Assembly: GCA_023205875.1 (NCBI GenBank)
Contig: CP060756.1
Location: forward strand, 1-64,000
DNA length: 64,000 bases
Source of the DNA: Chloropicon primus
Lineage: Eukaryota > Chlorophyta > Chloropicophyceae > Chloropicales > Chloropicaceae
Direction of reading: 5' to 3'
The translations under genes and the position numbers were made by a program. Shown here piece after piece: positions 1,304 through 38,282 of this stretch; the stretch's first letter is position 1, and each line of letters starts with the position of its first letter. The notes under the pieces are model-generated. The model was not told the DNA's origin. It saw nothing but the letters and a program-made list of their open reading frames with translations, and made no database searches.

Positions 1304-1921
1304 TCACGCCACTGCCTCCTGCTTCCTCTTCTTCGCCTCCACGAGCTTGCCGGCGTACTTCGAGTCAAAGTTCACCGCGTGCTCCACGATCCTTCGGCAG
1401 ACCGCCCACACCTCCGTCTGGCCCACGAGGTCCTCATCGTCCGCCGAGGCGATCAGGGCCTCTAGGGCCTCCACGATGTTGGCGTGGTCCTCCGCGTGGG
1501 ACGAGATGGCGCTGAACATCCTCAGATTCACTCCGCCATCCGACCCGAACCCGGACCGACTCATGAGTTCCTCCTCCTCCTTGGCGTGAAAGGCGAAGGA
1601 CTTGAGGAGGGATCGGATGTCCGCCGCGCTCCTGCTCTCGGCCGCCGCTCGCATCAGGTCCTCCAGCTCGCCGTGCTCCGCGTCCATGCCCTCGTGCCCT
1701 ACCGAGGGAAGCTCGAAGCTCGGGCACCCCTCGCCGTCGAGTTCCTGGGGGGCCTCGGAGCACGCGTTCCGGACGAAAACGGCCTTGGCGCCGCCGGCCT
1801 CCTCCTCCTCCTTCCGCTCCTCCTCCCCACCGAGGTTGGTCTCGGGCGACGCGATCAGCTGGTCCAGGACCGCTTCGACGTACTGGAAGGCGGCGTGCCC
1901 GACCTAACAGATCAATCAATC

Positions 1922-1952
<31 letters not shown>

Positions 1953-2687
1953 CGACGCGGTTTAGGGGGTGCAAGCCCGCGTCGTTGTCGTGAAGACTCA
2001 CCTTGTTCAGGGAAGGCGATCGAAGCGTCGCGAAGTGGCCCTTGGCGTCGATGACAACGAAGCCCTGGCACCCCAGCTGCGTCGGAAACTTTGGAAAGTC
2101 GTCGTAGTCATCGATGTATGCGTTCTTCACCGTGGACCCCTCGAAGTACCCTTGCTGGAACTCTCGAGCGACCTCCACCGGCCGGCCGTCGACGCAGACG
2201 CAAACGAAGCAAACCTGGATGGAGGTGGCAGTCGGAGTCGAATCCATTCCAATCCCATTGAATCGAACCGAATCAGTGAGTCAGTTCAAGTTGTCACGAT
2301 TGATTTCCTTCTTCTTCGTCGTTGTTTTTGCTCCACTGACCTGGTCCTTTTCGTAGGTTTCGCTCCACTTTCTCATCTGCATCGCTGCCGGCCTGCATCC
2401 TCCTCACCCCGCGTTGTAGAAGTGCACCACGAAAGGCACCCTCTGTTCCCCTGTCCCACGAGCAAAGAGAGCACGAGGAAGATACCCGCGTCAGGTTTAC
2501 CGATCTCCTCCGTTTTGTTGTTTATTGTCGTTGTTGTTTTGTTGTTGTCCTTACCTGGTGGTGGTGTGGTCTGGTTTCCCCAATCCGGCATAAGGACTTT
2601 GTCGTTGTCGTTGTCGTTGTCGTTGTTGTTGTTGTTGTATGGTGTTACCTTAAAGGCGGGACACCTCTTCCCTGTCAACTCCGCCAT
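1304..2687 (-). CDS. Putative selenoprotein: thioredoxin/AhpC-like domain fused to hemerythrin
   Basis: Predicted 351-residue protein from four exons: 2687-2555, 2450-2341, 2214-2002 and 1903-1304, all with GT-AG introns (104, 126 and 98 bp). Codon phases match at every junction. Residues 1-150 look like a peroxiredoxin/thioredoxin fold: a PFVVHFYNAG strand leads into an in-frame TGA (2406-2404, residue 60), then GGC, giving a U-x-x-C redox motif followed by a helix. An Asn/Asp-rich run at residues 18-29 could instead be a 51-bp in-phase intron. After an acidic linker, residues 218-335 carry the hemerythrin ligand set: H229, H258 with E262 (HxxxE), H288 and H292 (HxxxH), and H327 with D332 (HxxxxD). 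Hemerythrins bind a di-iron/O2 centre. The fusion suggests a peroxide- or oxygen-responsive redox protein. Reading TGA as Sec is inferred; the gene could instead be damaged. Confidence 0.7.
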
Positions 2688-4075: not shown

Positions 4076-5041
4076 TTACTTTGTCATCGGCATGTCCTTG
4101 TGCCTCCACATCGCGATCCCTCCCCTGAGGTGCGCCACTTTAGGGAACCCCGCCTGGATGAGCTCGTAACACGCCTTGAGGGACCGGCTCTCCCGGCCAA
4201 AGGCCTTCTCGGGGTCGCTGAAGACCTTGCCCCTCTTGCTCACTACCTCGGTCTCCATGCTCCCCCCGATGCTGCAGCAGCAGATCAGCAGGCGGTCCTC
4301 GTCCTCCGGCTTGGTGGTCGACAGGGCCTCGCACGCGTCCTGCACGAAGTCGGGGTTTCGCTCCGTGGCTTTCATGGCCATCGCGGCGACCGCGATCTTG
4401 AGGGGAAGGGCCAAGGCGGCAAGTCAGAACGAAGCACACGCGCGCACGCACGCGGAGGAGGGGAGCGGGCGCCCACGGAACGAACCAGAAAAAGTCAGAG
4501 CTCGAAAGCCACTCACCTTTTTGAGCGTCTTGAAGAAGGACTGGCCCTGCACCGACCTGTACAGGGGGACGTTCACCGACTCGCTGATGTGGCCGTTGCC
4601 ATTGTACTGGTACTCTGGCCTGACGTCAATCACCACCGCCTTGCCGCTCTTGACCATCTCCTCCACGTCCTCCGGGTCGATCACCGAAAACTTCTCCGAG
4701 TTGGAAAGCCTGATGTGTATGACGGGCCACAAGGTGTACTCCTCCCCGGTCTTGGTCTTCATGGTCGTCAGGCCGCCCTCCTCCCATTCGGACAAGGGGA
4801 GGCCACGCTTGTCGTCACGGACCCAGCGCAGGTTCGCCTTGTCGTACCAGAACCCGGGGTTGTCCTTCATCGTGGTTTCGTCCCCCTTGCCCTCCCCCTC
4901 CGTGGTCGTGGCTCCCAGCCTTACAACCCGGAGCTTCCTCTCTCCTCGAGTTGCGCGTGTCCTCGGGTTCCGCCCCGAGCATGCCCCCCCCTCGAGGACC
5001 CTCGAGGCCCTGCTCCCTGCGCTCACCATCGCTGGCTTCAT
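4076..5041 (-). CDS. Plastid-type rhodanese-domain protein
   Basis: 281 residues from exons 5041-4517 and 4396-4076, phase 0. The N-terminus is Arg/Ser/Gly-rich, as in chloroplast transit peptides. The domain begins near [24 protein letters not shown] and ends with [15 protein letters not shown], matching single-domain plant rhodaneses. The expected active-site region reads [10 protein letters not shown] and then runs through about 25 extra residues before RSLKACYEL, so the Cys-to-Arg/Ser loop is expanded. Sulfurtransferase activity is uncertain; a structural or regulatory role in the plastid is possible. The start was chosen as the first ATG in a frame with no upstream exon evidence. Confidence 0.75.
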
Positions 5042-36833: not shown

Positions 36834-38282
36834 TCACTTCTCGAACCCGGACGAATCGTGATTCTTTCCGTCGTCGTAAGCGGCCCCGCCGTGGTGGGAG
36901 ACGTCCAGGCCCATGGACTCCTCCTCGGGGGAGATCCTCAGGATTCCGGCAAGGCGCATGGCGCCGAAGACGATGGTGCCCATTCCCATGGACCAGATCA
37001 TGACCATGACCGCGGCCAGGAGGTTGACGGCGAACTGCGAGCCTCCGCAGCCGAAGAAGGCTCCGCAAGGCTGGTCCTCGCTGTAGGCAGCTGTGGTGTT
37101 GATCCTGCTCCCGAAGAGTCCGCCGCAGAGCATTCCGATGAACCCGCCCCCGAAGTGGACGGCGGCGGCGTCGAGGGGATCGTCGATCTTCATCTTCTGG
37201 ATGGCAATCGCGAACCAGAACTCAAAGAGTCCCCCGATGAGTCCGATGACGAAGCAGGCCCACGGCTCGGAGACGGCGACTCCGGAGCACACGGCCACGA
37301 GCCCAGCCAAGATTCCGTTGCACAGGGGCGGGAGGTCGAGGTGCCTGTACTTGATGAAGCACATGAGGATGGCCGCGAACCCGCCTCCGGACGCCGCGAG
37401 CGTGGTCCCCACGGCGACCTTCTCGGCGAGGAGGACGAATCCCCCGGAGAGGGCCAGGGTGGAGCCCGGGTTGAACCCGTACCAGCCAAACCAGAGGATC
37501 AGGGTCCCGAGCCCGACGAAGGCGGCGTTGTGCGGCGCGAACGCCTTCATGTTGCCGTTGGCGTCGAACCTCCCGATCCTCGGCCCGAGGATCGCCGCCG
37601 CCACGAGGGCGGTACAGCCCCCGACCATGTGCACCACGCTGCTTCCGGCAAAGTCCACGACTCCCGGGGAGACCCAGGCCCCCGAGGCGATGGAGGGGTC
37701 CCTGAACGCGGTGAGCCAGCCGTACGGCGACCAGATCCAGTGGACGACCACGGGGTAGATGAACCCTGTGATGAAGGTGGCGTACACAAGGTACCCGATG
37801 AAGGAGCACCTCTCGGCGACGGCCCCGCTCACGATGGTGGTGGCCGTCGCAGCGAACGCCCACTGGAAGAGCCAGCCCGCGAAAGAGTCGATGGACGGCG
37901 CGATCGGGTAGAGGCACTCGCTCGGGTGGCCTCCCTCGCACGAGTCGTAACCGTTGATGAAGAAGAAGCCCTGTGCGCCGATGAACCCGTTGGCGGGCCC
38001 GCCGCTGTAGTCCCCACCCCCGTACGCGAAGGGGAAGCCGAAGCCCCACCACACGAAGGCTCCCACCACCAGGTCCATGACGTTCTTGATCATGATGTTC
38101 TTGGCGTTCTTCTGGCGCACTGTGCCCGTCTCCAGCATGGCGAATCCGGCCTGCATGAGGAAAACCAGAAAGGCCGCGATCATCAGCCACAGGTGGTCGA
38201 TGATCCCGCTGAACTCGGCATACGCCGTGGCCTCAAACTCGGGCACCGGCGCCGCCGCAATCGCATCAGTCGCGTTCTCCAT
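36834..38282 (-). CDS. Ammonium transporter, AMT1 type
   Basis: 482 residues, intronless, about 11 membrane helices. Takes up ammonium at the plasma membrane. The family signature DFAGSSVVHMVGG is present with the ammonium-site aromatics around FQWAFAATATTI. Both conduction-pore histidines appear to be kept, one in the signature and one in DDPLDAAAVHFGGG. The C-terminus GLDVSHHGGAAYD resembles the regulatory tail of AMT1 proteins. The start is at MENATDAIAA; upstream in-frame codons (including a Met at 38387) would add a basic segment of doubtful reality. It is divergent from pyridoxal kinase. Confidence 0.93.
   Translation of the reverse strand: MENATDAIAAAPVPEFEATAYAEFSGIIDHLWLMIAAFLVFLMQAGFAMLETGTVRQKNAKNIMIKNVMDLVVGAFVWWGFGFPFAYGGGDYSGGPANGFIGAQGFFFINGYDSCEGGHPSECLYPIAPSIDSFAGWLFQWAFAATATTIVSGAVAERCSFIGYLVYATFITGFIYPVVVHWIWSPYGWLTAFRDPSIASGAWVSPGVVDFAGSSVVHMVGGCTALVAAAILGPRIGRFDANGNMKAFAPHNAAFVGLGTLILWFGWYGFNPGSTLALSGGFVLLAEKVAVGTTLAASGGGFAAILMCFIKYRHLDLPPLCNGILAGLVAVCSGVAVSEPWACFVIGLIGGLFEFWFAIAIQKMKIDDPLDAAAVHFGGGFIGMLCGGLFGSRINTTAAYSEDQPCGAFFGCGGSQFAVNLLAAVMVMIWSMGMGTIVFGAMRLAGILRISPEEESMGLDVSHHGGAAYDDGKNHDSSGFEK

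Follow-up and report, generated by a model that had tools for sequence, protein, structure and literature searches.

Among described proteins, the algal TlpA selenoprotein comes closest to the gene analysed here. In the available text of the survey "The algal selenoproteomes", which covered 137 algae, one sentence reports a hemerythrin domain in an algal TlpA selenoprotein, and 80% of the TlpA family members are given as Sec-containing (PMC7539508). The pairing of a selenocysteine (Sec) redox domain with a di-iron domain, which the first-pass annotation of the present DNA did not know as a described selenoprotein, had thus already been reported. The name Chloropicon does not occur in the main text of that survey. 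A second counterpart is the "Thioredoxin-fold protein" selenoprotein of Ostreococcus, likewise a thioredoxin-fold protein of a marine green picoalga, for which hemerythrin goes unmentioned in the available parts of PMC2375036 and PMC8834552. In the parts available of these two papers and of PMC6627142 and PMC2398784, no hemerythrin selenoprotein is named, and the term hemerythrin does not occur in PMC6627142, PMC8834552 or PMC2398784. No report of a functional test of an algal hemerythrin selenoprotein was found in the literature searched. For Chloropicon primus itself, the available portions of the two genome papers describe 20 chromosomes of 17.40 Mb with CCTAAAAA telomeres (PMC6731263) and, for a second strain, RCC138, 20 chromosomes of 17.5 Mb (PMC12301720); the main text of neither contains a word starting with "seleno".

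The window, i.e. the whole stretch of DNA analysed, comprises bases 1-64000 of contig 3 and represents the end of chromosome 3 of C. primus (assembly of 17.58 Mb in 20 contigs). Joining four minus-strand exons (2687-2555, 2450-2341, 2214-2002 and 1903-1304) yields one frame of 351 residues plus a stop codon, the sole internal stop of which is a TGA at 2406-2404 in the context FYNAG-TGA-GGC. We propose, with a probability of roughly 0.87, that this gene encodes a selenoprotein of ~351 residues, in which an N-terminal redoxin-like domain with a UGGC motif is fused to a C-terminal di-iron hemerythrin domain. Like the algal TlpA selenoprotein in the available text of PMC7539508, it combines a thioredoxin-like with a hemerythrin domain, and its architecture, with a putative Sec, fits that protein. 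The C. primus family is likely the TlpA family, as judged by comparing descriptions rather than residue by residue. The features of the locus are as follows.

About 1-215: telomeric repeats CCTAAAA(A), chromosome end, recognized by eye; this unit is reported for C. primus in the available text of PMC6731263
1210-1270, minus strand: SECIS-like hairpin with the 5' core ATGA, its TGA at 1264-1262 and a 3' GA at 1217-1216
1304-1903, minus strand: exon 4, linker and hemerythrin domain, with a TGA stop at 1306-1304
1340-1711, minus strand: hemerythrin-like domain with the ligands H229, H258, E262, H288, H292, H327 and D332 (351-residue numbering)
2002-2214, minus strand: exon 3, remainder of the thioredoxin-like domain with a QLGCQG motif, from the spliced frame and the alignment of relatives
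2341-2450, minus strand: exon 2, with AG/GT borders, coding for (G)EQRVPFVVHFYNAGUGGCRPAAMQMRKWSETYEKDQ
2404-2406, minus strand: in-frame TGA, proposed Sec codon of residue 60; the Cys codon that completes UGGC is at 2397-2395
2555-2687, minus strand: exon 1 of the long model, ATG at 2687-2685, with weak codon preference and an N-terminal peptide for which no relative was found
2687-2649, minus strand: exon 1 of the short alternative, the next acceptor being 2442

The repeats at the contig end bear out the position near a telomere that had been noted for this gene, and the exon 2450-2341 with its TGA stands as proposed, given the AG/GT borders and the single internal stop. The first-pass annotation further held that the splice phases on both sides of this exon force the frame. 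This is correct on the 3' side, where the junction of exons 2 and 3 is in phase 0, and slightly overstated on the 5' side, where the frame is fixed only if exon 1 reaches 2555. A short exon 1 (2687-2649) leaves the TGA in frame only with the acceptor at 2442, and, as read from the sequence, joining 2649 to 2450 places it out of frame. It is uncertain whether exon 1 is long, ending at 2555, or short, ending at 2649 and followed by the acceptor at 2442; the TGA stays in frame either way. In a codon-preference comparison, for which 19 long open frames of the window, presumed to be genes, served as the training set, the TGA frame scores highest in the 42 nt 5' of the TGA (0.48 bits per codon, versus -0.43 and -0.38 for the other two frames) and, by a small margin, in the 63 nt 3' of it (0.21, versus -0.02 and 0.15). 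The first 39 nt of exon 1 score higher in another frame (0.48) than in the TGA frame (0.14), and the extension of exon 1 favors the TGA frame over the other two at a weak 0.12. A search with the N-terminal peptide, its low-complexity stretch written as X, yielded no relative, and a search of the genome yielded no paralog, all three matches being the gene's own exons.

When the TGA is written as Cys, the segment FYNAG[C]GGC aligns without gaps with FYATWCGPC of the chloroplast thioredoxin z/CITRX (PDB 8xzv, 8qma), the best sequence match to the redox domain, albeit a weak one with an E-value of 0.012. The aligned stretches through the TGA are GEQRVPFVVHFYNAG[C]GGC in C. primus and GERNVPLIIDFYATWCGPC in thioredoxin z, so that UGGC faces the CxxC motif and a Sec residue would take the N-terminal, nucleophilic Cys position. 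This weak alignment agrees with the earlier placement of the TGA at the catalytic Cys of a thioredoxin fold. Compared to the C. primus gene, thioredoxin z has a Cys in place of the putative Sec, and its chains are much shorter, with 181-184 residues against 351. The profiles PF00085, PF08534 and PF00578 score 15.1-18.5 bits, under the Pfam cut-offs of 23.5-26.6; at best, the redox part would be a divergent member of the thioredoxin/redoxin group. The Cys of the QLGCQG motif, which is kept in 82 of 83 relatives, could act as an additional resolving Cys.

The public model A3770_03p19730 reads the locus as a protein of 284 residues that starts just 3' of the TGA and differs at one residue from the C-terminal 284 residues of the spliced frame. 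Were this annotation right, translation would start at Met68 (MQMRKW), the TGA would lie in the 5' leader, and the product would be a hemerythrin with a shortened remnant of the thioredoxin domain. Relatives were collected to compare their starts: a first search gave 17 proteins and a later one at least 83, drawn from the 8000 candidates sharing most words. These 83 are protein clusters, mostly of metagenome and transcriptome origin, and include the annotated C. primus protein. The models of 80 among them begin 3' of the TGA position, and those of 62 begin at residues 68-72 (60 being the safer count, for the first residues of P0032 and P0082, though placed at residue 70 in the alignment, look unrelated). 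All 12 relatives named as MMETSP or EukProt ORFs start at Met70. Because ORF callers are built to end at UGA, starts near Met70 are also expected for a Sec gene; the same starts would follow from a true start at Met68 or Met70. The positions at which the relatives' models begin suggest a conserved TGA in other species.

Several observations make the annotated start unlikely. It would strip the fold of its first strand and active site across the whole family, whereas the 42 nt 5' of the TGA look coding and align with thioredoxins through the TGA, and a SECIS-like site is present 3' of the stop codon. Three models run further upstream (P0022, P0075 and P0083), of which only P0075, a distant relative, has clearly related residues there: its GGCRPCA before MQM corresponds to GGCRPAA in C. 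primus, which also argues against a start at Met68. The upstream stretch of P0075, FFEGGCRPCAMQM, has a Glu before GGC, at the Sec position; this speaks against plain conservation of Sec in that record, although a UGA may have misled the gene caller there. In P0022, RPPQMQAW precedes the same Met. No recognisable full-length Cys form of the upstream half was present among the 83 relatives, and two scans of viral DNA and two of genomes for the relatives' genes found none.

A still less probable reading has the TGA in an intron, either with GGGGTGAGG at the TGA as the donor or with an intron from 2648 to an acceptor past the TGA. GTGAGG, which overlaps the TGA, does resemble a 5' splice site, and AG dinucleotides follow closely on the 3' side. 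However, a donor at the TGA joined to the acceptor of exon 3 (GG|GTT) would, as read from the sequence, take exon 3 out of the frame conserved in relatives. It would also lose MQMRKW, whose Met70 is shared by 60 of the 83 relatives and whose Trp73 by 64. With an acceptor past the TGA, the active site would be lost. A splice donor at the TGA was rejected on phase. As a separate observation, the Sec TGA does sit within a good-looking donor (window 2420-2390, minus strand), use of which as a splicing switch would lose Sec and break the frame. Least credible of all is a subtelomeric gene in decay with the TGA as a nonsense mutation, a reading that the nearby chromosome end might suggest but that disagrees with the otherwise open codons, the single difference in 284 residues from the annotated C. 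primus protein, the intact set of seven di-iron ligands and the cut at about the same place in the models of 62 of the 83 relatives.

The C-terminal domain of the proposed selenoprotein has all seven ligand residues, arranged as H, H-E, H-H and H-D, which we take to be the hemerythrin di-iron set; the complete set that had been read from the sequence is thereby upheld. It is also complete in 71 of the 83 relatives, the other 12 being mostly short or diverging models, with a Tyr at one His in P0024. PF01814 scores 19.8 bits against the whole protein and 21.1 bits against the domain alone, under its cut-off of 25.3, and TIGR02481 scores 27.2 bits, under its cut-off of 51.75; a precomputed PF01814 assignment exists for 16 of the 83 relatives. 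The structure of the annotated 284-residue protein was predicted using 16 sequences, with a mean pLDDT of 66.7. As 10-residue means, the hemerythrin helices are mostly at 84-97 and the redox part is poor at 48-75; the modelled protein lacks the segment matching the first strand and CxxC of thioredoxin. Myohemerythrin is a single-domain O2-binding protein, and its seven ligands are presumably of the same type as those of the C. primus domain. A Foldseek search gave myohemerythrin (PDB 2mhr) as the best fold match of the C-terminal domain, with an E-value of 2.7e-3, a TM-score of 0.82 by target length and 24% identity over the aligned part. With the seven di-iron ligands and a predicted four-helix fold both present, the domain appears to be a hemerythrin.

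A search for a SECIS element in 1100-1303 had been recommended, and a SECIS-like site, GCATGATGGGGTGCCCGGGAAACGACGATTGATGTCAGCCGGCGCCTACTGAAG, is indeed found there, 39 nt 3' of the stop codon of the gene. RNA folding gives a helix II, an internal loop with an unpaired AAA and a 3-bp ministem. Hairpins with CATGA, a helix, AA and GA, found in the 3' UTRs of four glutathione peroxidase (GPx) genes that carry a TGA, were used as controls; the fifth such locus, L016, is a likely copy and was left aside. A scanner of our own, written after the candidate and the GPx elements had been inspected by eye, so that its figures are somewhat flattering, scores the candidate at 27.35, within the range of the GPx controls (13.1, 24.1, 27.5 and 36.0). 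On both strands of the 64-kb window no other site reaches 27.35; the next best are 27.0 at 4374 (minus), which lies inside the apparent coding part of the next gene and is probably due to chance, and 26.4 at 37139 (plus). Dinucleotide shuffles of the 200-nt 3' UTR reach 27.35 in 5 of 5000 cases (2 of 2000 at 27.4 in an earlier run).

The background comprised 154,548 bases from 22 other loci, with the two strands counted separately, and omitted eight loci, three from the hemerythrin-fusion gene and five of Sec-type GPx. It holds two sites at or above 27.35, one in L022 (31.3) and one in L023 (27.9), both with an Rdx-family match on the same strand some 300-500 nt upstream of the site. The matched Rdx exon of L022 has no TGA; the Rdx family presumably covers selenoproteins of the SelW/SelT type. 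Six further sites in the 22 loci score 24.6-26.6, so the margin of the scanner is thin. Rfam searches of the window and the 3' UTR, and with SECIS_1 genome-wide, gave no SECIS at this gene; on four GPx loci, only that of GPxD matches SECIS_1, and its 20.3 bits fall short of the gathering score, 35. An RNA model built from the GPxA-C elements (R1) misses both the candidate and GPxD, and recovers its three training elements plus one site in L018 that scores equal to GPxA. Two other alignments were dropped as the basis of a model, A3, with four GPx elements, because GPxD was misaligned, and A6 because GPxB was misaligned. The candidate hairpin is not more stable than its shuffles (z of +1.3 and +1.9), the GPx controls ranging from -2.0 to +0.6; RNA stability alone does not reliably separate SECIS elements from shuffles, for the candidate and the controls alike.

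The genome encodes machinery for Sec incorporation. The tRNA-Sec scores 66.9 bits with the anticodon tca, and a second tRNA-Sec-like match is sub-threshold at 25.9 bits and not called as a tRNA. SepSecS and SelD are matched at 418.7 and 305.2 bits, respectively. The EFSec candidate scores 216 bits against the selB model, under the cut-off of 242, and its best PDB match is the Selenocysteine-specific elongation factor 5izk (2.3e-110); for the SBP2 candidate, the sole PDB match at E ≤ 0.001 is SBP2 (6.1e-21). The check for Sec machinery that had been recommended thus found every component sought. In addition, a single in-frame TGA is present in five of six GPx matches, of which two score equally, and in one of three Rdx matches. 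Together with the SECIS-like site and the alignment of the TGA with Cys, the machinery supports the earlier reading of a Sec redox domain joined to a di-iron domain.

Mechanistically, the SECIS-like hairpin past the stop codon would direct the decoding of the UGA, which the alga's own tRNA-Sec, EFSec and SBP2 would carry out. O2 or peroxide may bind to the di-iron site. The bound oxidant might then be reduced by the selenenyl/thiol pair, possibly together with the near-invariant QLGCQG Cys, or its oxidation might be relayed as a disulfide. That the protein acts in this way as an O2/peroxide-responsive oxidoreductase is put forward tentatively, since Sec incorporation, di-iron binding and an action of the selenol on oxidants bound at or made by the di-iron site are each deduced from sequence; other roles, for instance the sensing of iron or O2 with the redox domain giving the output, are equally compatible. 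A wider view, which we regard as doubtful, is that of a widespread protist family (at least 83 clusters) in which a catalytic selenol, almost invariably Sec rather than Cys, adjoins a di-iron O2/peroxide site; its members would serve as a selenium-iron enzyme or sensor of O2 or peroxide unlike characterised selenoenzymes, and would be hidden by database entries cut at the UGA.

By the literature searched, Sec thioredoxin-hemerythrin proteins as a kind are already in print, and the C. primus member appears not to be. The present reading adds a likely selenoprotein to C. primus and corrects a public gene model that is devoid of the active site. It also suggests that a Sec codon may be where many protist hemerythrins in databases are truncated. 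The placement of a selenol close to a di-iron O2 site would be chemically unusual, and is testable.

Three further features of the Sec genes were observed. The two equal-score GPx matches, both with an in-frame TGA, lie ~4 kb apart on opposite strands (G000:C1:158819-159139, plus; 163046-163366, minus) and look like an inverted duplication, probably copies, adjoined by a third Sec-type GPx. SelD (G000:C5:610925-611839, minus) is part of one open frame of 801 residues, in which it is preceded by an apparent flavoprotein domain of the NADH-dehydrogenase type and has a Cys (FCAGCG) at the active site; SelD-flavoprotein type fusions are known from other algae and cyanobacteria. The SBP2 candidate (G000:C1:1730871-1731146, minus) apparently has, as judged by eye, two C2H2 zinc fingers before its L7Ae domain.
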